Origin: Halorussus salinisoli
GTDB taxonomy: Archaea; Halobacteriota; Halobacteria; Halobacteriales; Haladaptataceae
NCBI GenBank assembly: GCA_005239435.1
Contig: SZNP01000001.1
Span: 1,240,001-1,304,000 of the forward strand
Length of the DNA: 64,000 nucleotides
Direction of reading: 5' to 3'
Each line of letters begins with the position of its first letter. Position 1 is the stretch's first letter. This document shows positions 33,222-48,028 of this stretch, piece by piece. The translations under genes and the position numbers were made by a program. The notes below the pieces were generated by a model, which saw only the letters and a program-made list of their open reading frames with translations, was not told the origin of the DNA and searched no databases.

Positions 33222-34193
33222 CTACTTCCGGTCGAGCCGCGACAGGCCGTGCCAGATGGCGTCCACCATCCGGTCTTCGCCGTCGCCTTCCGCGTCCTCC
33301 CACCCGCGGGCCAGCGCGTCCTCGACGACCGCGAGGTCGTGATTCTCGAAGTTGTTCATCCCGCGGAACGCTTCGAGCGCGTCGCGCTCCTTCGGACCGA
33401 AATCGGAGTCGGGGACGCTCGCGGTTTCACCGCTCGTTTCCGAGGCGCGTTGCGCCTCGCTCTCCTCGTAGAACCCGAGATCCGCGAGCGTCGCCGTGAC
33501 CTCCGCCGCGGTCTCGCCCGAGAGTTCCCGTACCTCGTCGGGTTCCTCGCGTTCGAGCAGGGTCACGTCGTAGATTTTGAACACCCGTTCGAGTTCGTCG
33601 ATGGGTGCCTCGTGGTCGTCCACGCGCACGTCTATCCAGTGGTCGTTCTTGCCGTCGTAACCGCCCTCGGGCTTGACGACGTAGAGTGCCGCGCTCTGCT
33701 CGCCGCGCTTGTCGCCGCCCGCCTCGTTGCCCGCGTGAAGTGCCGCGACGAGTTTCTCGGGGAGGCCGCCCTCGGTCTCCTCGTACGCGTCTTCCATCGC
33801 GTCCAAGGTGTCCTCGTTTTCGAGGATGTTGCCCTGCACGGTGTAGGTCTCGCCCTGCCGGTCGTCGGCGAACTCGAAGCACTCCGCGCCCGTGAACCCG
33901 GCGACGGAGCCGTCCTGCCCGACGACGCCGACCTGTCGCTGGGCGGCTTCGGGGTCGTCGTCGGTCAGTGACGCGACGACTTCCTCGGCCGACTCGCCTT
34001 CGCGCAGGCGGTCGAGACCGTCCGGGCCGTAGGCGACGTTGGCGAAACTCTGCGTGGCGATAGCTCCGGCGTCGGCGCTGGCGAACGGGACGACGGAGCC
34101 GACGCTGACGAACTTCGACTGGACCGCCACGCCGACCGCTTCGGTGTCCGGGTCGTGCGCGACGATGGAGAACGTCGATGGTCGCGGTTCCAT
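33222..34193 (-). CDS. DUF1028-family protein
   Basis: A 323-residue protein from the ATG of MEPRPSTFSIVAHDPDTEAVGVAVQSK. That opening, with VGSVVPFASADAGAIATQSFAN, is the conserved Ntn-hydrolase-like start of DUF1028. GETYTVQGNILENEDTLDAM and GGDKRGEQSAALYVVKPEGGY follow. The C-terminal 100 residues are an added helical region (TAAEVTATLADLGFYE, GPKERDALEAFRGMNNFENHD) that resembles a peptidoglycan-binding-like extension in some homologues. The biochemical role is not established; amidase activity is a guess from fold. Confidence 0.88.
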   Translation of the reverse strand: MEPRPSTFSIVAHDPDTEAVGVAVQSKFVSVGSVVPFASADAGAIATQSFANVAYGPDGLDRLREGESAEEVVASLTDDDPEAAQRQVGVVGQDGSVAGFTGAECFEFADDRQGETYTVQGNILENEDTLDAMEDAYEETEGGLPEKLVAALHAGNEAGGDKRGEQSAALYVVKPEGGYDGKNDHWIDVRVDDHEAPIDELERVFKIYDVTLLEREEPDEVRELSGETAAEVTATLADLGFYEESEAQRASETSGETASVPDSDFGPKERDALEAFRGMNNFENHDLAVVEDALARGWEDAEGDGEDRMVDAIWHGLSRLDRK

Positions 34194-34239
34194 GTCCGAC
34201 TCGTCGGAATCGAGGGCGAAAAGCGTTCGCCCGGCGGCG

Positions 34240-34780
34240 TCAGTCTCCGGTTTCACCTCCGGAAGACGGGCGCTTTCGCGCCGTCAGGGGCTGGCGCTTC
34301 GCCAGTTCGCAGTCGAAGGCCGGATGCTCTGCGAGGTGGTGGACCAGCATGTGTCGCCGACCGCCGGTCAGTCCGGTTCGCTCGACGTCAGCGGCGGTGA
34401 ACTCCCCGGGCAGTCGGTCGTAGAGTCGCCGGAGTTCGGCGAAGCTCTCGAACACCTTCCGGTGGCCCGCCGACTCCGCGCGCCTGCGGGAGACGACGTA
34501 ACTACCGTCCTCGCGGTGGCTGCCGACGGTGCGCACGAACTCCCGCCGCTCGGTCAGCGCCTCGCCGAGCGCCTGCCGTAGCTGGTCGGCCTCGGCTCTG
34601 GTGAGCTCGTGGGTCTCGCCCGCGACGGTTACTACGACCGTCTCGTCGGGGTTGGTACGCTCCGGGTCGGAACGGTCCGGTTCAGAACAGCGGTCAGACT
34701 CCGCACGGAATTTCTCGACCAGCCGCCGACTGGCGACTTACTCTATCCTCGGACGCCTCGGTGAGGCCGTGGCTCGACAT
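34240..34780 (-). pseudogene. DUF7528-like gene, apparently frameshifted near its start
   Basis: The conserved-looking frame runs from 34737 to the stop at 34240: ETVVVTVAGETHELTRAEAD, LRQALGEALTERREF, then SYVVSRRRAESAGHRKVFESF and VERTGLTGGRRHMLVHHLAEHPAFD. It ends with ARKRPSSGGETGD. No ATG, GTG or TTG exists between its upstream stop (34738-34740) and the internal GTG at 34536, which lies in the middle of the conserved text. An ATG at 34780 (MSSHGLTEASEDR) is in another frame 43 bases before. One inserted or two deleted bases would join them. It could be a recent mutation or a sequencing error. The function is unknown. Confidence 0.6.
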
Positions 34781-36442: not shown

Positions 36443-37336
36443 TCAGGGGAGGTCTACGTCCACGCCTTCCTGACGTCCGGCGGCCTTGACGGCGTTGTAG
36501 AGGAGCATCGCGCGGGTCATGGGGCCGACGCCGCCGGGGACCGGCGTGATGGCGCTCGCCTTCTCCTTCGCGCTCTCGAAGTCCACGTCGCCGACGAGTT
36601 CGTAGCCCTTGTCGTTGTCGGCGTCCACTCGGTTGACGCCCACGTCGACGACCGTCGTGCCCTCCGAGAGCATCGACCCGTCGACGAGTTCGGGGACGCC
36701 GCAGGCCGCGACGACCACGTCGGCCTGTCGGGTCTTCGCCGCGAGGTCGTCCGTTCGGGAGTGACACACCGTCACGGTCGCGTTGCCGTCGTCTGCCTTC
36801 TGCATCAGGAGGTTGGCCAGTGGCTTGCCGACGATGTTCGACCGGCCGACGATGGTCACGTCGGCACCTTCGGTCTCGACGCCCGCCGACTCCAGTAGCT
36901 TCAGAACGCCGTGCGGCGTACAGGGCCGGTAGCGAGCGTGACCCGCGACGAGACGGCCGACGTTCTCGGGGTGGAAGCCGTCCACGTCCTTCTCGGGGTC
37001 GATCGCGCGGAGAACCTCCCGTTCGTCTACGTGGTCCGGGACGGGCATCTGGACGAGGATGCCGTGGACCTCGGGGTCGTCGTTCAGGTCCGCGATGGTG
37101 TCGTGGAGGTCCGACTCGGGAGCCTCGGGGTCCAACTCGACGTGAATTCCCTCGATGCCGACTTCCTCACAGTCGCGCTGTTTCATCGAGACGTAGGTCT
37201 CGCTGGCGGGGTCGTCGCTCATCAACACCGTGGCGAGGCCGACCTCGACGCCCGCGTCGGCCAGCGCCTCGATGCTGTCCTGCAGGTCGGCGCGAATCTC
37301 CTCGGCGACGGCGTCGCCGTCGATTACCTCTGTCAT
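36443..37336 (-). CDS. folD: Methylenetetrahydrofolate dehydrogenase/cyclohydrolase FolD
   Basis: A 297-residue bifunctional enzyme, normal length. It oxidises methylene-THF and hydrolyses methenyl-THF to formyl-THF in cytosolic one-carbon metabolism. Signatures: VLMSDDPASETYVSMKQRDCEEVGI (catalytic Tyr and Lys), ILVQMPVPDHVDEREVLRAIDPEKDVDGFHPEN, PCTPHGVLKLLE, VTIVGRSNIVGKPLANLLM and ITPVPGGVGPMTRAML. The next gene on the strand is glyA, 210 bases upstream, and the two are functionally linked. Confidence 0.97.
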   Translation of the reverse strand: MTEVIDGDAVAEEIRADLQDSIEALADAGVEVGLATVLMSDDPASETYVSMKQRDCEEVGIEGIHVELDPEAPESDLHDTIADLNDDPEVHGILVQMPVPDHVDEREVLRAIDPEKDVDGFHPENVGRLVAGHARYRPCTPHGVLKLLESAGVETEGADVTIVGRSNIVGKPLANLLMQKADDGNATVTVCHSRTDDLAAKTRQADVVVAACGVPELVDGSMLSEGTTVVDVGVNRVDADNDKGYELVGDVDFESAKEKASAITPVPGGVGPMTRAMLLYNAVKAAGRQEGVDVDLP

Positions 37337-37546: not shown

Positions 37547-38794
37547 CTACTCGTACAGGGGGTTCGCCTCGCAGAGTTCCTGCACGTCCTCGGCGACTTC
37601 GGCCTTCACGTCCTCGTCGTCCACGTTGTTCACGACGCGAGCGATGAGGTCGCCGACGTACCGGCAGTCCTCCTCGTCGAAGCCGCGAGTCGTGAGCGCG
37701 GGCGTTCCCGCTCGGATGCCCGACGTGACGAACGGCGAGCGAGTCTCGCCGGGCACGGTGTTGGCGTTCAGGACGATGCCGACGTCTTCGAGGGCCTCCT
37801 CGGCGTCCTTCCCGGTCACGTCCTCGTGGGACTCTCGGAGGTCCACCAGCACGAGGTGGGTGTCGGTACCGCCCGAGACGAGACTGAAGCCGTTCTCCTG
37901 TAGGCTCTCGCCGAGCGCTTCTGCGTTCGCGGCGGTCTGAGCCGCGTACTCCTCGAACTCCGGTTCGAGCGCCTCGCCGAACCCGACCGCCTTTCCGGCG
38001 ATGTTGTGCATCAGGGGACCGCCCTGCATCCCGGGAATCACGGCCGAGTCGATGTCGTCGGCGTACTCCTCGTCGCAGAGGACTATCCCGCCGCGCCCCG
38101 CACGGATGGTCTTGTGGGTCGAACCGGTCACGAAGTCGGCGACGCCGACCGGCGAGGGGTGCTCGCCCGCGGCGACGAGTCCCGTGATGTGCGCCATGTC
38201 CGCGAGGTGGTAGGCGTCCACCGCGTCGGCGGCCTCCTGAATCGTCTCCCACTCGACCTCGCGGGGATACGCCGAGTAGCCCGAGACGACGATGTCGGGG
38301 TCGAACTCCTCGGCGTGGTCGCGCAGGGCCTCGTAGTCTAGATACCCCGTCTCGGGGTCGACCTCGTACTGCTCGACGTCGTACAACTGCCCGGTGAAGT
38401 TGGCGTGGTGGCCGTGGCTGAGGTGGCCACCGTGGGTCAGGTCGAGCGACAGAATCTTGTCGCCGGGTTCGAGCATGGCGAAGTAGACCGCCATGTTGGC
38501 CTGCGTGCCCGAGTGAGGCTGGACGTTGACGTGTTCGGCCCCCCAGAGTTCCTTCGCGCGCTCGATGGCCAACTCCTCGACCGTATCGACGTGTTCGCAC
38601 CCGCCGTAGTAGCGCGACCCGGGGTACCCTTCGGCGTACTTGTTAGTGAAGACGCTCCCCTGGGCCTCTAACACGGCCTCGCTGACGTGGTTCTCGCTCG
38701 CAATCATCGCCAACGTGTCGCGCTGGCGGTCTACCTCGGCTTCGAGGGCATCTGCGACCTTCGGGTCTACATCACGAACGCGGTCGTACTTCAT
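37547..38794 (-). CDS. glyA: Serine hydroxymethyltransferase GlyA
   Basis: A 415-residue PLP enzyme starting MKYDRVRDVDPKVAD. It converts serine and tetrahydrofolate to glycine and methylene-THF. Visible: LAMIASENHVSEAVLEAQGS, NKYAEGYPGSRYYGGCE, VQPHSGTQANMAVYFA, HLADMAHITGLVAAG, DFVTGSTHKTIRAGRGG with the Schiff-base Lys, and RAGTPALTTRGF. Its product feeds FolD encoded just downstream. The TATA element AAGCTTATACT gives a leaderless message. Confidence 0.97.
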   Translation of the reverse strand: MKYDRVRDVDPKVADALEAEVDRQRDTLAMIASENHVSEAVLEAQGSVFTNKYAEGYPGSRYYGGCEHVDTVEELAIERAKELWGAEHVNVQPHSGTQANMAVYFAMLEPGDKILSLDLTHGGHLSHGHHANFTGQLYDVEQYEVDPETGYLDYEALRDHAEEFDPDIVVSGYSAYPREVEWETIQEAADAVDAYHLADMAHITGLVAAGEHPSPVGVADFVTGSTHKTIRAGRGGIVLCDEEYADDIDSAVIPGMQGGPLMHNIAGKAVGFGEALEPEFEEYAAQTAANAEALGESLQENGFSLVSGGTDTHLVLVDLRESHEDVTGKDAEEALEDVGIVLNANTVPGETRSPFVTSGIRAGTPALTTRGFDEEDCRYVGDLIARVVNNVDDEDVKAEVAEDVQELCEANPLYE

Positions 38795-38897: not shown

Positions 38898-40997
38898 ATG
38901 ATAGAGTGGGAGGAGACTGACGCCGGGTTGCGGGTGTTCGACCGCACGAAGACGGAGGTGTCTATCGAAACCGACGCGTGGGAAGCGGTCGACGCGGGTT
39001 ACGACATCGAACGCCCGCTTGACGAGACGGTGTCGGGCTACGTGTCCGAGATCGGTTTGCCACCGGCCCTGGTGAAGGCTACCGGACTCGACTCCGGGGA
39101 AGAGTACAAGCACGGCGGTGACGCCGACTCGCTCGACCTTCCCGACGGCGACTACCTACTCAACGTCAGTCTCAACGTGAAGACGTACCTCCGGTTCTCC
39201 GGCGCTGTGACGATTTCGAAGACCGACGACTACAACGAACTCCACGTCTCCTTTCCCGAACCGACGCTCGTGACGTTCGGGTTCCGAAGCCATCACGAAG
39301 AACCTGTGGACACAGTCACCGTCCCGCCGACGCCCGAAGGCGTGGCGACGGCGGTCACGAACCTCTCGTCGTCCCACAAGGTCACGGGTCCTGACCGGTC
39401 GTATCCGACGCTTCGGGGCCACCCACCGCGCCTCGAACTCGGCGAGGAGACCGACATTCCCGACCCGGTCCGGGAGGAGCGTTTCGACGTGGGTATCGAA
39501 CTGGTCGTCCCCGATAGCTTCGAGTACGCGTTCGTCGCGGCCCCGCTCGCCTACTACCTGCAGGCTGAGATGCGGGTTGAAGACCGGCGGTCGCCCGTGT
39601 TACGCGCTCCCGAATCGGGAGTCGAGTACCGGTTCACCCCGCTTCCGGGGTTCCAGCACGAAGTCACTGACGTGCTCTGCCGGGTGTTCTTCCTCGACTG
39701 CCTCGTCCGAAATGCGGGCGAGTACAGCTGGGACCTGACCGAACTCTCGATGCTGGACGCGGTCGGTATCGACGCCGAAGCCACCTACGAGGCGACCCCG
39801 GCCGAACAACTGGCGACGTATCTCGATGCGCCCTACGAACGCATCGACGACGAGTTGCCGGAGTGGCACTTCGCCATGCACATCAGCCCCCGCGCAGACA
39901 ACGCCACGTCGCTTCCGTACTTCCTCGATACCCTCAGCCTCGTCTACCTCCCCGAGTCGACCGACTTGGAGAAAGACGAACTGCTAAACAAGTCTATCGA
40001 CGACTTCTATCGCGCGGCCCCTCCGGAGAGGCAACCGCCGAAGCCCACTACCGGGATGGCCCGAAGAGGCCCCGGTCCGGTGAAGTCAGTCGACAGGCGC
40101 GACCCCGTCCTCTACGAGGGGCAGGTCAACGGGTGGCTCGCCGACGGCGTACCGATAGACGTGTTCAAAGCCATTCCCGAGGCCTACGAAAACCGCTTCA
40201 AATACCTCGACGAGGGCGGCGACATCGACGTGACGGTCATCCTCAACGACGAGGAGATGGTGGGCGAACACGAGACTGTCGCCGACATCTACGAGGAACG
40301 CGCGAAGCATCTCCCCATCGAGGTGACGGTCCACGAACACCTCTCGAAAGCCGAACTCGCCGAGGTGTTCGAGTCGCCACACGACTTCGTCCACTACATC
40401 GGCCACTGCGAGAAAGACGGCCTTCGGTGCCGCGACGGGAATCTCTCGGTCTCGGACATCGAGGAGAGCAACGTCCAGACGTTCTTCCTGAACGCGTGCG
40501 GTTCGTACTACGAGGGCAGGGATCTAGTGACGAAAGGAAGCGTCGCGGGCGCGGTGACGTTCACGAAAGTTCTGAACAAGCAGGCCGCGAAGGTCGGTGT
40601 GGCGTTCTCCCGGTTGCTCATCAACGGCTACGACATCGCCCACGCTATCCAACTCGCCCGCCGTCGCATCATGATGGGGAAAGACTACGCGGTGGTCGGC
40701 GACGGAACTCACCAGTTGACCCAGTGCGACAATCGGTATCCGGCCATCGCAACCCTCGAAGAGAGCGGCGACCGGTACGAAGTCGAATACAAGACACTCT
40801 CGATGCCGAACGTCGGCGGGATATTTCAGGTGTATCGAGATGGAGACGAGAAACCTCGACTTCACGGAACCGAGTCGACGTTCGTGCTCGACCGGTCGGA
40901 ACTTCTTCCCTTCTTAGAACGCGCGAAAACGCCGTTCGTGTACGACGGCGATTTGTTCTGGTCGGAGGAACTCTCCGACCAAATCAGAAGCTCTTAG
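38898..40997 (+). CDS. CHAT-domain (caspase-like) protease with long N-terminal region
   Basis: A 699-residue soluble acidic protein; an upstream TTG lies before the predicted transcript start, so the ATG of MIEWEETDAGLRVFD is used. Residues 1-330 are a beta-rich region of unknown type (SYPTLRGHPPRLELGEET, VPDSFEYAFVAAPLAYYLQ, EWHFAMHISPRADN). The C-terminal half contains a CHAT fold: FVHYIGHCEKDGLRCRDGNL with His near 503, VQTFFLNACGSYYEG with Cys near 534, then GSVAGAVTFTKVLNKQAAKV, VAFSRLLINGYDIAHAIQLAR. CHAT proteases cleave specific partners, often in defence or cell-death systems. No TPR or gasdermin is adjacent. The gene ends overlapping a 44-residue convergent ORF by 3 bases. Confidence 0.8.
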   Translation: MIEWEETDAGLRVFDRTKTEVSIETDAWEAVDAGYDIERPLDETVSGYVSEIGLPPALVKATGLDSGEEYKHGGDADSLDLPDGDYLLNVSLNVKTYLRFSGAVTISKTDDYNELHVSFPEPTLVTFGFRSHHEEPVDTVTVPPTPEGVATAVTNLSSSHKVTGPDRSYPTLRGHPPRLELGEETDIPDPVREERFDVGIELVVPDSFEYAFVAAPLAYYLQAEMRVEDRRSPVLRAPESGVEYRFTPLPGFQHEVTDVLCRVFFLDCLVRNAGEYSWDLTELSMLDAVGIDAEATYEATPAEQLATYLDAPYERIDDELPEWHFAMHISPRADNATSLPYFLDTLSLVYLPESTDLEKDELLNKSIDDFYRAAPPERQPPKPTTGMARRGPGPVKSVDRRDPVLYEGQVNGWLADGVPIDVFKAIPEAYENRFKYLDEGGDIDVTVILNDEEMVGEHETVADIYEERAKHLPIEVTVHEHLSKAELAEVFESPHDFVHYIGHCEKDGLRCRDGNLSVSDIEESNVQTFFLNACGSYYEGRDLVTKGSVAGAVTFTKVLNKQAAKVGVAFSRLLINGYDIAHAIQLARRRIMMGKDYAVVGDGTHQLTQCDNRYPAIATLEESGDRYEVEYKTLSMPNVGGIFQVYRDGDEKPRLHGTESTFVLDRSELLPFLERAKTPFVYDGDLFWSEELSDQIRSS

Positions 40998-41448: not shown

Positions 41449-42273
41449 ATGGAGACCGAATCGAATTTACTCGACCAAGAAATCGCCGAAATCCTTCGGA
41501 CGGTCATCGACGAAGCGCCGGACACGATGCTCGTGGTCAATCCGTCGAAGGACGCTATCGAACAGTTAATCAACGTCGCTACCGACTACGAAGGCGACCT
41601 GCCGACCTTGCGCATGCTCGCGCAGTCGGGGACGCTGAAAGACGTCATGGAAGACTTCATCGTCGCCAGTAACGCCGCCGACCTCATCGACGCGGGGTCG
41701 CTCGAACTGCGTACCACCGACGAAGTGCCGAGCAACTCCCTGCTCGTCACCGACGAAGTCGTCATCGCGCTCGTGACGGCCGACGACCGCGTGGGCGGCC
41801 TCACGGCCGACGACGCCGAGTTCGTCTCGGAAGCCAACGACTCCTACACCGAGCAGTTCGAGTCGGCCGACGAGTTCTCGCTCCGCACGCCGCCGCTCTC
41901 GCGCGTCCGCGACACGCTCGGCGAGGAGATCAGCCCCGAAGCCCAGGAGGACTTCGACGAGGTGCTGTCCTCGATGGAGACCGCGCGTGGCGACGGCGAC
42001 GGACTCGACGAAGTCACCATCAGTCTGCTCGTGGCCGCGAAGAACGAGGCCCTGCTGTACGACATCAGCAAGTGGGGCGAAGACGTCGGCATCGCCAGCA
42101 AGGCGACGTTCTCGCGCACGAAGACCAAGCTCGAAGACATGGGTCTCATCGGCACCGAGAAGGTCCCCATCGACGTGGGCCGACCGCGCCTGCGCCTGAA
42201 GCTGGCCAACGACGACCTTCGCAACGCCGAGACCGACCAACTCGCGAGTGCGGCCCAGAGCCTGCTGCACTGA
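41449..42273 (+). CDS. tbsP: TbsP-like transcriptional regulator (DUF5821)
   Basis: A 274-residue protein. The N-terminal 110 residues (LDQEIAEILRTVIDEAPDTMLVVNPSKDAIEQLINVATDYEG) form an alpha/beta domain resembling the truncated phospholipase-D-like sensor of TrmB. The C-terminal part (DEVTISLLVAAKNEALLYDISKWGEDVGIASKATFSRTKTKLEDMGLIGTEK) is a winged helix. In Haloferax the protein TbsP works with TrmB in controlling glucose and gluconeogenic gene expression. The match to TbsP is by memory of the family, formerly DUF5821. Confidence 0.78.
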   Translation: METESNLLDQEIAEILRTVIDEAPDTMLVVNPSKDAIEQLINVATDYEGDLPTLRMLAQSGTLKDVMEDFIVASNAADLIDAGSLELRTTDEVPSNSLLVTDEVVIALVTADDRVGGLTADDAEFVSEANDSYTEQFESADEFSLRTPPLSRVRDTLGEEISPEAQEDFDEVLSSMETARGDGDGLDEVTISLLVAAKNEALLYDISKWGEDVGIASKATFSRTKTKLEDMGLIGTEKVPIDVGRPRLRLKLANDDLRNAETDQLASAAQSLLH

Positions 42274-42356: not shown

Positions 42357-44120
42357 ATGAGTACACCGACCGTCGGACTCGTCGGCGCGGGTCCGGCAAT
42401 CGACGCCGTGACGACGGCGCTCGCCGACGTGCAGGTCGAGACCGTCGAGTGTGATTCCCGGCGCGTCGCGGCCAGCGATTTCGCCGTGGTCGCAGGTGAG
42501 ACGGACGACGACGCCTTCGCCGAGGCGAATCGCGCGGCGCGCGAGGCCGGTACGCCGTGGCTCGCGGTCGAAATCGGCGGCGTGGGCGGTCACGGGATTG
42601 CGGGCGTCGAAGCCGCCGTCTCGGGGTTCGCTCCGGGAACTGCCTGCTGGAACTGTCTCCAGGCGCGAGTCGCGGCGAATCTGGACGACGAGCGAGACGC
42701 AGACCGAGATGCCGATACCGAACTCACGCCCACGAGCGCGCGTTTCGCAGGCGCGCTCGCAGGCCGAGAAGCCGCGACCCTGCTGGCTGGCGGCGACTCC
42801 TCGGCTCTCGGCGGTGTCGTGGAGGTGCCCCACGCCGAGCGTACCCTGCTTCCGATGCCGGGCTGTGCGGTCTGCAGCGAGAGGGCCGGAACTAGCGCGC
42901 AGGCCGACCCGGCCCTCGACCGCGCGTACGCAGACACCGACTTGGAGGACGCGCTCGCTCGGGCCGAACGGGCCGTGGACGAGCGCGCGGGCGTCGTCTC
43001 GGCTATCGGCGAGGCCGAGTCTTTCCCCGCACCGTACTACCTCGCCGAACTCGCCGACACCACGGGGTTCAGCGACGCACAGGCCGCCGAACAAGCCGCG
43101 GGCGTCTCGGCCGACTGGAACGAGGCGCTGATGAAGGCGCTCGGCGAGGCACTCGAACGCTACGCCGCGGGCGTCTACCGCACCGAGGAGTTCGAGACCG
43201 CGCGCCCGGCCGACCTCGATTCGGCGGTCGGACCGGCGGCGTTCGTCCGGCCCGACGGATGGGCCGACGCTGGCCCGGACGAAGAACTGGCGTGGCGAGA
43301 CGGCCAGAACCTCCGGACCGGCGAATCGACGCATCTTCCGGCGGAGTTCGTCCACTTCCCGCCGCCCGAGGTCCGCTACAAGCCCTCCATCACGACGGGT
43401 CTGGGCCTCGGCAGTTCGACCGTCGAGGCCCTGCTGTCGGGTCTCTACGAGGTCGTCGAGCGCGACGCAACGATGCTCTCGTGGTACTCCACGTTCGACC
43501 CGCTCGGACTCGCGGTCGAGAGCGAGCGATTCGAGACCTTGCGGTCGCGCGCACGCGCCGAGAATATAACTGTAACGCCGCTGCTGGTCACGCAGGACGT
43601 GGACGTGCCCGTGGTCGCGGTCGCCGTGCATCGGGACGGCGAGTGGCCGCGGTTCGCGGTCGGTTCGGACGCCGACCTCGACCCGGACGCCGCGGCCAGT
43701 AGCGCGCTGGCCGAGGCGCTCCAGAACTGGATGGAGTTGCGGTCGATGGGCGAGGACGCCGCCGCCGACGCCGAGGGCGCAATCGGTCGGTACGCCGACT
43801 TCCCGGAGGCGGCCCGGGAGTTCGTGACGCCCGAAACCACGATTCCCGGCGCGAGCGTCGGCCCGGCCGACCCGCCAGCGGGGAGCGACGAACTCGACGC
43901 CGTTCTCGACCGACTCGCCGACGCCGACCTGTCTGCCTACGCCGCGCGCCTGACGACCCGCGACGTCGAGCAGTTGGGGTTCGAGGCGGTTCGGGTATTG
44001 GTGCCCGAGGCCCAACCGCTGTTCACGGGCGAGTCGTTCTTCGGCGAACGCGCCCGCGATGTGCCAGCGGAGTTGGGCTTCGAGTTCCGGCCCGACCGCG
44101 ACCTCCATCCGTATCCGTGA
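42357..44120 (+). CDS. YcaO-domain protein fused to an E1-like ocin-ThiF region
   Basis: A 587-residue protein. Residues 1-210 form an E1-like domain with GLVGAGPAIDAV, FAVVAGETDDDAF and a zinc site C97xxC100 ... C170xxC173 (CWNC, CAVC). Residues 220-587 are YcaO: SAIGEAESFPAPYYLAELAD, NEALMKALGEALERYAAG (the Glu-rich ATP/Mg site), GLGLGSSTVEALLSGLYEVVERDA and ASSALAEALQNWMELRSMGE. It ends HPYP, a typical Pro-rich YcaO end. YcaO enzymes use ATP to make azolines or thioamides on peptides or proteins. No precursor peptide, dehydrogenase or TfuA is seen beside it, so the target may be a cellular protein. Confidence 0.9.
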   Translation: MSTPTVGLVGAGPAIDAVTTALADVQVETVECDSRRVAASDFAVVAGETDDDAFAEANRAAREAGTPWLAVEIGGVGGHGIAGVEAAVSGFAPGTACWNCLQARVAANLDDERDADRDADTELTPTSARFAGALAGREAATLLAGGDSSALGGVVEVPHAERTLLPMPGCAVCSERAGTSAQADPALDRAYADTDLEDALARAERAVDERAGVVSAIGEAESFPAPYYLAELADTTGFSDAQAAEQAAGVSADWNEALMKALGEALERYAAGVYRTEEFETARPADLDSAVGPAAFVRPDGWADAGPDEELAWRDGQNLRTGESTHLPAEFVHFPPPEVRYKPSITTGLGLGSSTVEALLSGLYEVVERDATMLSWYSTFDPLGLAVESERFETLRSRARAENITVTPLLVTQDVDVPVVAVAVHRDGEWPRFAVGSDADLDPDAAASSALAEALQNWMELRSMGEDAAADAEGAIGRYADFPEAAREFVTPETTIPGASVGPADPPAGSDELDAVLDRLADADLSAYAARLTTRDVEQLGFEAVRVLVPEAQPLFTGESFFGERARDVPAELGFEFRPDRDLHPYP

Positions 44121-44886: not shown

Positions 44887-45972
44887 ATGGACCGCGAAGA
44901 TCTCGCCGACCACTTCGAGTGGTTCGCCGACTGGTGCGACGGGGGCACGTCGCCGCTGTACGAGCGACTCGCGCGCGGCGTCGCCGACGACCCCGACCTC
45001 CTCGACCTCGCGGCCGAGGCGCCCGAGGGTCGGTCACCCAGCCACCTCCTGTTCGCGTCGGTCCACTACCTCTTGCTCTCGGGCCGAGACACCCCGCTGG
45101 CCGACTACTACCCCACGGTCGCCGACGACCCTCTCGACCCCGAGGGGAGCGACCCGTTCCCGGCCTTCCGGGAGTTCTGCCTGTCGAACGCCGACGATAT
45201 TCGGAAGCTCTCGAAACGTCGCCGGACCCAGACCAACAGCGTCCGGCGGTGCGCGGCGCTGTTCCCGGCGTTCGAGGAAGTATCCCGACGCGCGAGTCGC
45301 GGACGTACTGGTCGAACTCGCGCGAGTCGCGGGAACTCGCGCGAACCGCTCGCGCTGGTCGAGATAGGGCCGAGCGCGGGCCTGAATCTTCTCTGGGACC
45401 GCTACGAGTACGACTACGGGGAGGCCGGTCGGTACGGCGACCCGGACTCCCCCGTCCGCATCGAGTCGTCGGTCCGGGAGGGGAGACCCCCGTTCCCCGA
45501 CGAACTGCCGCCGGTCGCGTCGCGGGTCGGCGTGGACCTCGATCCGCTGGACGTGACCGACGACGAGGACGCCCGGTGGCTCCGGTCGCTGGTTTGGCCC
45601 GAGCACGACGACCGTCACCGACTGCTCCGGGCGGCGCTGGACGTGGCCCGCGAACGACCGCCGGACCTCCGGGAGGGCGACGCACTCGAACAGCTTCCGG
45701 AGGTGGTCGCCGAGATTCCCGACGACCGACCGGTCTGTCTGTTCGACACCCAGGTCCGCTACCAACTGGACGAGGTGGACCGCGAGCGACTCGACGACCT
45801 GATAGCCGAACTGGGCGCGGACCGGCGACTCTACGTCCTGTCGGGCGACGAGGCGTCCGACGAGTACGAGCAGGCCATCGACCTCACGCTGACGGCCGCG
45901 GGCGACGGCCGGACCGAACGCGTCGCCGTCTACCAACAGCACGGCGAGTGGATCGCGTGGGACGGGAGGTGA
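44887..45972 (+). CDS. DUF2332-family protein
   Basis: A 361-residue protein. LADHFEWFADWCDGGTSPLYERLARGVADDPDLL is the conserved DUF2332 opening. LALVEIGPSAGLNLLWDRYEYDYG near residue 158 and DVTDDEDARWLRSLVWPEHDDRHRLLRAAL follow, with GIGPSAG-like turn reminiscent of methyltransferases. The function is unknown. An Arg/Ser-rich insert (SRRASRGRTGRTRASRGNSR, about residues 133-152) is encoded by near-repeating CGCGCGAGTCGCGG units and separates two otherwise well-conserved segments. Confidence 0.85.
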   Translation: MDREDLADHFEWFADWCDGGTSPLYERLARGVADDPDLLDLAAEAPEGRSPSHLLFASVHYLLLSGRDTPLADYYPTVADDPLDPEGSDPFPAFREFCLSNADDIRKLSKRRRTQTNSVRRCAALFPAFEEVSRRASRGRTGRTRASRGNSREPLALVEIGPSAGLNLLWDRYEYDYGEAGRYGDPDSPVRIESSVREGRPPFPDELPPVASRVGVDLDPLDVTDDEDARWLRSLVWPEHDDRHRLLRAALDVARERPPDLREGDALEQLPEVVAEIPDDRPVCLFDTQVRYQLDEVDRERLDDLIAELGADRRLYVLSGDEASDEYEQAIDLTLTAAGDGRTERVAVYQQHGEWIAWDGR

Positions 45973-46269: not shown

Positions 46270-47406
46270 TCAGATACCGAAGGTCGCCCGGAGCATGTCT
46301 CGCGTGCCGGGACCGAGACCGACCGCGACGATGGCGACGAGTAGCAGGATGGCGTAACGCGGACTCTCCTCGAATATCTGCTCGTCGAACACCCAGACGA
46401 CGAACACCGCGGCGACGATTTTCACGACGAGGAAGGGCCACGCCGTGCCGACGACCTGTTGGACCGCCTCGGGGAACTGTTCGCCGACGCCGATGAGCGC
46501 GCGGTTGACGGGGTGCTTGGGTACGAGGTCGGCGGGGAGGCCCAGTTCCTTCGCCCAGTCGATGCCGACGACGTTGGCCACGCCGTCCACCGCGTGGGCC
46601 CAGAGAACGACGAGACCCATCTGGCCGGTCCCGCGGTTGATTTCGGGGGCGTAGCGTTTCACGGCCTCCCACGTGAGCAACGTGACGAGGGTCGCGCCGA
46701 CGAGGACGACGACCGTAATCTGAGGGAAGAAGTCCACGTAGTCGGTGGTGAACGCCAGTACCGAGAGGTAACCGACGGTCACCGCGAGCAGTAGTGTGCC
46801 CACGCCCGCGAGGGGGTACTCGTAGTCGTCCACCGCGCCCGAGTCCCGGAGCCAGATGCTCCCGAGCAGGGCGGCCAGCGTGATGGCGAACATCGTGAAG
46901 TAGATGACCGGGCTGATGATGAGGGTGTTCCACGGGAACGTGATGGCGGCGTCGGCCGCCGACAGTCCGTCGAAGGCGTCCTCGACCACGCGCAGTGCCC
47001 CGCCGAACAGCATGAAGGGGAACAGCGCGTAGAACAGGCCGCGGTCCTGTCCGACGCCGAGACGCCGGAGCATGAAGACCACGCCCAGAAGTGCCAGCAA
47101 CAACGTGAGTGCGTAGCCGACCTCCGAGACCAGCGTGTAGCCGGGGTAGGCGACCGGTTCGGCCGCGGCCTGACACGCCGCGGCGTCGTAGTGGTACGTC
47201 ACCGACCCGTCGGCGTAGGCCGCACACTGGGCGCTCTTGGCGTCGGCGACGACCGGCCCCCAGAAGTAGTGCCAGACGAATCCGTAGTAGACGCGCTCCG
47301 GGAAGACGAGTACGCCGCCGATTAGCGCCGTCAACAGCGCCGCGACCGTGCCGCCCCAGAGGCGTTCGGTGTCCATGCCTTCGGTTACGGTGCTCATGTT
47401 TTCCAT
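46270..47406 (-). CDS. DUF63-family integral membrane protein
   Basis: A 378-residue protein with about ten membrane helices; the ATG of [10 protein letters not shown] is used, and MSTVTEG nine bases later is also possible. Characteristic DUF63 text: [76 protein letters not shown] and [17 protein letters not shown] conserved HAxDG-type segment suggests a catalytic or ion site. The function is unknown. It lies downstream of the Lrp gene on the same strand. Confidence 0.88.
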
Positions 47407-47563
47407 GGCGGAACCGGGCGGTTTTACGGTTCCGGTCTCGGCCGTGGCTACGCAGTCGTTCCCAATCGTTCGGCACTGTCGTTCGGCCACAGTAGTTCGC
47501 ACGGGGTTCCGGTCGCTGTCGGGTCGACACGGCCGGTGAGTCGCTATCGTCTCGCGCGACCGC

Positions 47564-48028
47564 TCAGACTTCGCTTCCGTCAATCGGGAGTTCTTCGGTC
47601 TCGTACGGCGTGCCGAGAATGACCATCGTCTGCGAGCGGGCGAACCCGTCCATCTGGGCGATGTTCTCGAACATGAGTTCGCGGAGGCGGTCGGCGTCCT
47701 CGGCGTACACGCGCATCAGAACGTCCCACGACCCGGTGGTGAGGTGGACCTCCTGCACGCCGGGGATGTCCTCGAGGCGATCGAGGGTGTCCTGTTCCTG
47801 TCCCTGTTCGACCTGGAGGCCGACGACCGCGGAGATACCGTAGTCGAGCGCCTTGGGGTCGACTTTGGCGTGATACCCTTCGATGACGCCGGCGTCTTCC
47901 ATTCGGTTCACGCGGTCGTGGACGGTCGCGCTCGACATGTCGATTCGGCGAGCTATCTCGCTGAACGGGGTTCTGGCGTCTTCTTGTAACGCTTCCAAAA
48001 TCGCGCGGTCGGTATCATCGAGTTCCAT
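47564..48028 (-). CDS. Lrp/AsnC-family transcriptional regulator
   Basis: A 154-residue protein of classical layout: N-terminal helix-turn-helix ([50 protein letters not shown]), then the RAM ligand domain ([43 protein letters not shown]). It binds DNA as dimers and octamers and responds to amino acids. The target is unknown. A TATA box at 48051-48060 (GATATTTAGT on minus) supports the ATG and leaderless transcription. Confidence 0.95.

Follow-up and report, generated by a model that had tools for sequence, protein, structure and literature searches.

A widespread haloarchaeal family of CHAT/clan-CD-fold proteins with a conserved arginine motif in its linker

What might be the function of a large haloarchaeal protein that has a caspase-like domain in its C-terminal half and an unfamiliar sequence in its N-terminal half? 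The question is raised by a gene at 38898..40997 on the forward (+) strand of the window, by which we mean the whole 64,000-nucleotide stretch of DNA that was analyzed (Halorussus salinisoli, assembly GCA_005239435.1, contig SZNP01000001.1, positions 1,240,001 to 1,304,000). An earlier note, made from the sequence alone, had taken its 699-residue product (P0001) for a stand-alone, undescribed CHAT/caspase-like protease whose N-terminal 330 residues were beta-rich and matched no known family. Here, we identify the whole gene from its reading frame, its homologs, and its predicted fold as a member of a real and widespread branch of the CHAT/clan-CD proteins, of which we found no description in the open-access literature searched. 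The reading that we favor, and hold to be somewhat probable, is that this protein is a cysteine endopeptidase of the CHAT branch of clan CD, cleaving its substrates after arginine and either cleaving or inhibiting itself at a site in its own linker.

Fold, catalytic dyad, and distribution of the family

The reading frame is open throughout, from an ATG at 38898 to the stop codon at 40995-40997, and the column of the start methionine is at least 90% conserved in 58 aligned N-terminal sequences. The caspase/CHAT-fold domain (residues 400-614, 40095..40739, +) was delimited by structure prediction and structure search. The structural matches extend over residues 322-609, a segment for which the caspase/gingipain/separase fold is predicted with confidence, His503 and Cys534 forming the dyad: a caspase-like alpha/beta domain in which the histidine and the cysteine follow neighboring strands, as in clan CD. 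The best Foldseek match was SAVED-CHAT (7.6e-8); gingipains and separases were the closest folds, with SAVED-CHAT and Csx29 also among the closest. The earlier note had named an unrelated fold as grounds for dropping its proposal, and the structure search returned instead the fold that it had proposed.

Single-sequence searches with the window protein gave no match at E <= 10 in Pfam, NCBIfam, PADLOC, or the sequences of the Protein Data Bank (PDB), and it accordingly does not exceed the curated cut-off of the CHAT family (PF12770, 24 bits). That cut-off is passed, with 24.3-29.6 bits, by P0124, P0167, P0171, P0179, P0198, and P0212, six of 120 listed rows, chosen for the precomputed CHAT label that they carry. 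Four other members were tried: P0244, P0227, and L108 gave no match and L107 fell under the cut-off. The separase family (C50) has no Pfam match in the window protein and is not one of the seven families that a Pfam search of 64 members brought up; the gingipain family C25 has none in the window protein and reaches at best an E of 0.031, in 4 of the 64. No SAVED or TPR domain was matched by Pfam in the window protein. The assignment to the CHAT/caspase fold is thus borne out by the predicted fold, by the SAVED-CHAT match, and by the Pfam matches of the six members, and the claim of no known family holds for searches with the single sequence, although some members of the family are already “CHAT domain-containing” or “caspase family” in public records.

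The predicted catalytic residues, His503 in YIGHCEKDG (40404..40406, +) and the putative nucleophile Cys534 in LNACGSYYEG (40497..40499, +), are where the earlier note had placed them, and both are present in all 197 aligned sequences (the window protein included, and some proteins entered twice). In a wider alignment, which holds near-duplicates since some proteins appear both as a record and as a locus translation, these two residues and a near-invariant second cysteine, Cys511 (40428..40430, +), are jointly present in 454 of the 461 rows; six of the remaining seven have lost the dyad and the other, the shorter protein P0222, is gapped there. The histidine and cysteine are 31 residues apart in 450 rows and 32 in four. 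With 40 later loci the set grows to 501 rows (469 groups at 99% identity, P0222 excluded), and 493 of the 500 scored, P0222 again excluded, retain the dyad, leaving seven dyad-less members. The conservation of Cys511 is close to that of the dyad, and one member that lost the dyad, L105, still has this cysteine.

Upstream of the protease domain, the predicted structure is beta-rich, as the earlier note had said, for residues 1-142 (38898..39323, +) but alpha/beta for the conserved middle region that follows (residues 143-355, 39324..39962, +), where all 461 rows have Arg271 and 460 have Asp267. The C-terminal region (residues 615-699, 40740..40994, +) is predicted to mix strands and helices. 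The window protein has no hydrophobic segment of transmembrane grade (maximum 1.14 over 19 residues), and it is presumably cytosolic.

The family is anything but stand-alone, although “undescribed” stands for the literature searched. Its 649 homologs were found among 8000 scored candidates; seven copies are found in the window's own genome (one gene accounting for two of the eight rows). We also sampled 194 haloarchaeal genomes from the class and found a match in 179, counting the window's genome. If these are split at the gap in their best E-values, about 116 of the 179 have the window type and 63 a second type only; the nine Haloferax-like genomes of the sample have one match apiece, and the Haloferax volcanii member, P0244, has the dyad. 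A scan with the alignment profile of 196 genomes of the window's phylum matched 32, of which 28 belong to the window's order and four to one family of another order. This second order, which we take to be Methanocellales-like (no search result names it), had a match in 4 of 4 genomes. For the control, M. acetivorans, some kind of CHAT match was also reported. A FastTree phylogeny of the 461 rows, rooted on four methanogen members, separates a window clade (198 rows, support 1.0) from a second clade (259 rows, support 0.977) into which P0244 of H. volcanii and the window genome's six further copies fall.

The linker motif and the candidate specificity pocket

Two features bear on what such an enzyme would cut. 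Conservation singles out residues 450-457 (ND..M..E; 40245..40268, +) as a candidate acidic S1 pocket: Glu457 and Met454 are invariant in the 493 dyad-bearing rows and Asn450 is present in 492, and Glu457 is lost in six of the seven dyad-less members. In the predicted structure Glu457 lies within helix 452-468, which comes after strand 443-449. The other feature is in the variable linker, residues 356-399 (39963..40094, +), which was delimited by structure prediction and alignment and whose predicted local distance difference test score (pLDDT) is below 50 at residues 367-378 and 385-388. Here, the stretch DDFYR (residues 368-372, 39999..40013, +) is, from its statistics and the separase consensus, a putative self-cleavage or pseudosubstrate motif. 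The linker contains F-x-R in 474 of the 493 dyad-bearing rows, compared with a mean of 68 and a maximum of 81 in 50 shuffles, and [DE]-F-x-R in 392, compared with 14. When the rows are collapsed at 99, 95, and 80% identity, 443/462, 427/446, and 271/289 of them contain F-x-R (shuffles 65, 63, and 42), and of 88 representatives below 60% identity 74 have F-x-R and 53 have [DE]-F-x-R. The logo reads D-[DE]-F-x-R; at least two copies of F-x-R occur in 173 rows, the last being mostly FTRS. None of the seven dyad-less members has the motif.

In gingipain R and MALT1 an aspartate of helix alpha1 binds the P1 arginine, and separases have an acid at a similar position and a D/ExxR cleavage consensus (excerpts of PMC4626109). 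Separase favors an acid before ExxR and autocleaves at ExxR sites of its own disordered region (excerpts of PMC6858450). It is the combination of a separase-like linker motif with an acid in the helix of P1-arginine recognition that leads us to view the protein as arginine-specific and either self-cleaving or self-inhibited. Residues 1-142 and 143-355 would then make up a regulatory half for the binding of a ligand or partner, and residues 400-614, with the His503/Cys534 dyad, would be the protease, whose own active site the (D/E)-F-x-R site of the low-confidence linker may fit. The enzyme would be held in check until cleavage at the linker released or remodeled it, much as separase autocleaves at ExxR; alternatively, the uncut motif would sit in the active site and keep the enzyme inhibited.

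The latter possibility can be extended to a motif that is never cut, one that serves permanently as a pseudosubstrate or for docking until a partner such as TbsP or a DUF7504 protein displaces it, as securin, by a pseudosubstrate, blocks separase (excerpts of PMC6858450). We judge this the less probable alternative. In its favor, the conserved stretch of some eight residues at a helix end exceeds what a minimal cleavage site needs, and recurrent neighbor genes exist. Set against it, the arginine itself is kept rather than replaced by a blocking residue, and the next residue is one of G, S, A, and D for 78% of the 474 motifs versus 38% of the linker background, as in a site that can be cut.

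Several observations nonetheless weigh against arginine-specific self-cleavage. In 19 of the 493 rows the linker has no F-x-R; these include the three methanogen members with the dyad and several window-type members, such as L053, L057, L058, L060, and L061, in which the motif is missing or replaced by a variant. About one-fifth of rows have no D or E before F-x-R. The motif follows predicted helix 359-367, and the stretch doubles as a helix end. Positions -5 to +1 have no proline and those out to -7 almost none; hence, the lack of proline after the arginine is not evidence specific to cleavage. The joint loss of dyad and motif amounts to about two lineages, L100-L104 being one clade and L105 standing apart; L166, which is outside the tree, resembles L100-L104. 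Finally, according to excerpts of PMC3615174, H. volcanii lysate did not cleave ARR-AMC, a trypsin/cathepsin substrate, at 42 C; hydrolysis of the same substrate was relatively high in one ammonium-sulfate fraction.

The same excerpts (PMC3615174) describe in H. volcanii a strong, stress-linked, zVAD-sensitive activity on LEVD, VEID, and IETD substrates, whose responsible protein they give as yet to be identified, and similar activity in further haloarchaea as well as in Methanosarcina, Pyrococcus, and Sulfolobus. Could this family be its source, as an Asp-specific stress protease? The family is widespread in haloarchaea, H. volcanii has the dyad-bearing P0244, and the activity's sensitivity to zVAD would fit. 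However, an acid is invariant in the candidate S1 region, for which caspases rely on arginine, and the closest folds, gingipains and separases, are Arg- or Lys-specific, gingipain K being the Lys-specific one. Moreover, the activity is reported for Methanosarcina, Pyrococcus, and Sulfolobus, whereas our scan, which covered the window's phylum only, matched two orders. The acidic S1 region and the known distribution thus argue against a simple identity, which we think unlikely.

The dyad-less members raise the further question of whether catalysis matters at all. Five of them, L100-L104, form one clade that is basal in the second clade of the tree; in these and in L166 the N-terminal half is intact and the protease domain degenerate, and the genomes of L100-L104 each also hold a dyad-bearing copy. 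L105, a methanogen member, lost its His and Cys separately, and its three relatives retain both. Arg173, Tyr220, Asp267, and Arg271 are kept across L100-L108, of which six lack the dyad and three are methanogen members that have it, and also in L166, the seventh dyad-less member. The middle region therefore seems functional without catalysis and, to judge by these residues, may be a ligand or partner site. The persistence of such members could suggest that the whole family is a non-proteolytic scaffold or sensor with a relic caspase fold, but with the dyad in 493 of 500 rows, and with Glu457 in all and F-x-R in nearly all of those 493, we consider this very improbable.

Genomic neighborhoods

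The window copy lies in a conserved glyA/protease/tbsP locus. Its divergent neighbor is glyA (serine hydroxymethyltransferase, 37547..38794, -; the start was set at Met52 of a long open reading frame whose family match begins at residue 61), and the next gene downstream is that of the transcriptional regulator tbsP (41449..42273, +), both recognized by library match, as was folD (36443..37336, -), which is matched in 58 of 71 window-type loci. In these loci glyA is upstream and divergent in 69 of 71 and tbsP is downstream on the same strand in 67 of 71, with a median gap of 418 bases.

For the second type, we compiled a context sample of 52 genes: six from other genomes, the six second-type copies of the window's genome, and 40 picked by hand, all 40 nearer to P0244 than to the window protein. 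A DUF7504 gene directly precedes 17 of the 52 in the same orientation and is split in two in one case. Over 50 loci DUF7504 is the commonest neighbor family (17), followed by a GAF/PAS-like kinase (11; the family name is ours, assigned from sequence) and a HalX response regulator (7). The window's genome has 17 DUF7504 matches; all but one of its six second-type copies have such a gene alongside, in one case downstream, which accounts for five of the matches. Five Haloferax-like genomes have 4-6 matches each, and in the four whose protease locus was examined the best-scoring DUF7504 is the protease's neighbor. DUF7504 was found in none of the 71 window-type loci, and TbsP has no detectable relation to it. 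At one locus of the window's genome (L122), two family members lie within about 5 kilobases, only one of them adjoining DUF7504.

The protein may be linked to metabolic or stress signaling. There is no support for the defense role that the earlier note had considered from bacterial CHAT proteins, many of which are abortive-infection or other defense effectors. SAVED-CHAT and Csx29 are, it is true, among the closest folds, and the paralogs are multi-copy, with some on plasmid records (25 such records match the family, all from haloarchaeal genera). However, the window copy has a constant metabolic setting, the ten window neighbors scanned include no cas or phage gene, PADLOC does not match the window protein (the paralogs' neighbors lying outside that scan), and the paralogs' commonest neighbors are DUF7504 and signaling proteins. 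No phage record matches the family, and of eight stretches of viral contigs that matched a pattern none is a relative by sequence. We therefore consider a defense effector improbable.

Elsewhere in the window, a YcaO/SagD-type cyclodehydratase gene follows tbsP (42357-44120, +) and is matched in 25 of 71 relatives' loci. An archaeal DUF1028 protein fused to a putative peptidoglycan-binding domain is encoded at 33222-34256 (-), and DUF2332 and DUF63 proteins at 44887-45972 (+) and 46270-47583 (-).

Wider meaning and comparison with known systems

Archaeal genomes are said to be without clear caspase-family homologs (excerpts of PMC3615174). The present family supplies widespread haloarchaeal candidates for “archaeal caspases”, the H. 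volcanii member included, and extends the separase/gingipain/CHAT group by an archaeal branch; its natural dyad-less members show which parts persist without catalysis, and its predicted cleavage site is precise enough to be tested by two point mutants. More speculatively, haloarchaea and the Methanocellales-like order may share an ancient family of separase-like signaling proteases, Arg-specific, self-cleaving at (D/E)FxR, often paired with DUF7504, and with dead paralogs as built-in regulators. If so, both groups would use it as a general regulatory protease of the caspase fold, and it could explain part of their “caspase” phenotypes.

Among known systems, the CHAT domain (PF12770, which includes SAVED-CHAT and Csx29, or TPR-CHAT) shares the caspase fold and the H-Y-I-G-H and L-N-A-C motifs, but the window protein is below Pfam detection, has another N-terminal half, and has the conserved linker motif; it also differs from SAVED-CHAT and Craspase in its want of SAVED and TPR domains and of cas genes among the neighbors scanned. 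Gingipains are exported proteins, whereas the window protein has no segment of transmembrane hydrophobicity; like gingipain R and MALT1, it has an acid, Glu457, in the helix that corresponds to the one with the P1-Arg-binding acid. Caspases and metacaspases (C14) differ in the absence here of a C14 Pfam match and in a P1-recognition region that has an acid here and arginine in caspases. The anti-sigma factor DdvA (8rw5), also among the closest known systems, is a transmembrane protein according to its entry. Compared with separase, the protein has a candidate P1-Arg-binding acid, Glu457, and a linker motif that resembles the D/ExxR cleavage consensus; the N-terminal half, however, is helical in separase and beta-rich plus alpha/beta here, and the present family is archaeal, with no known securin.
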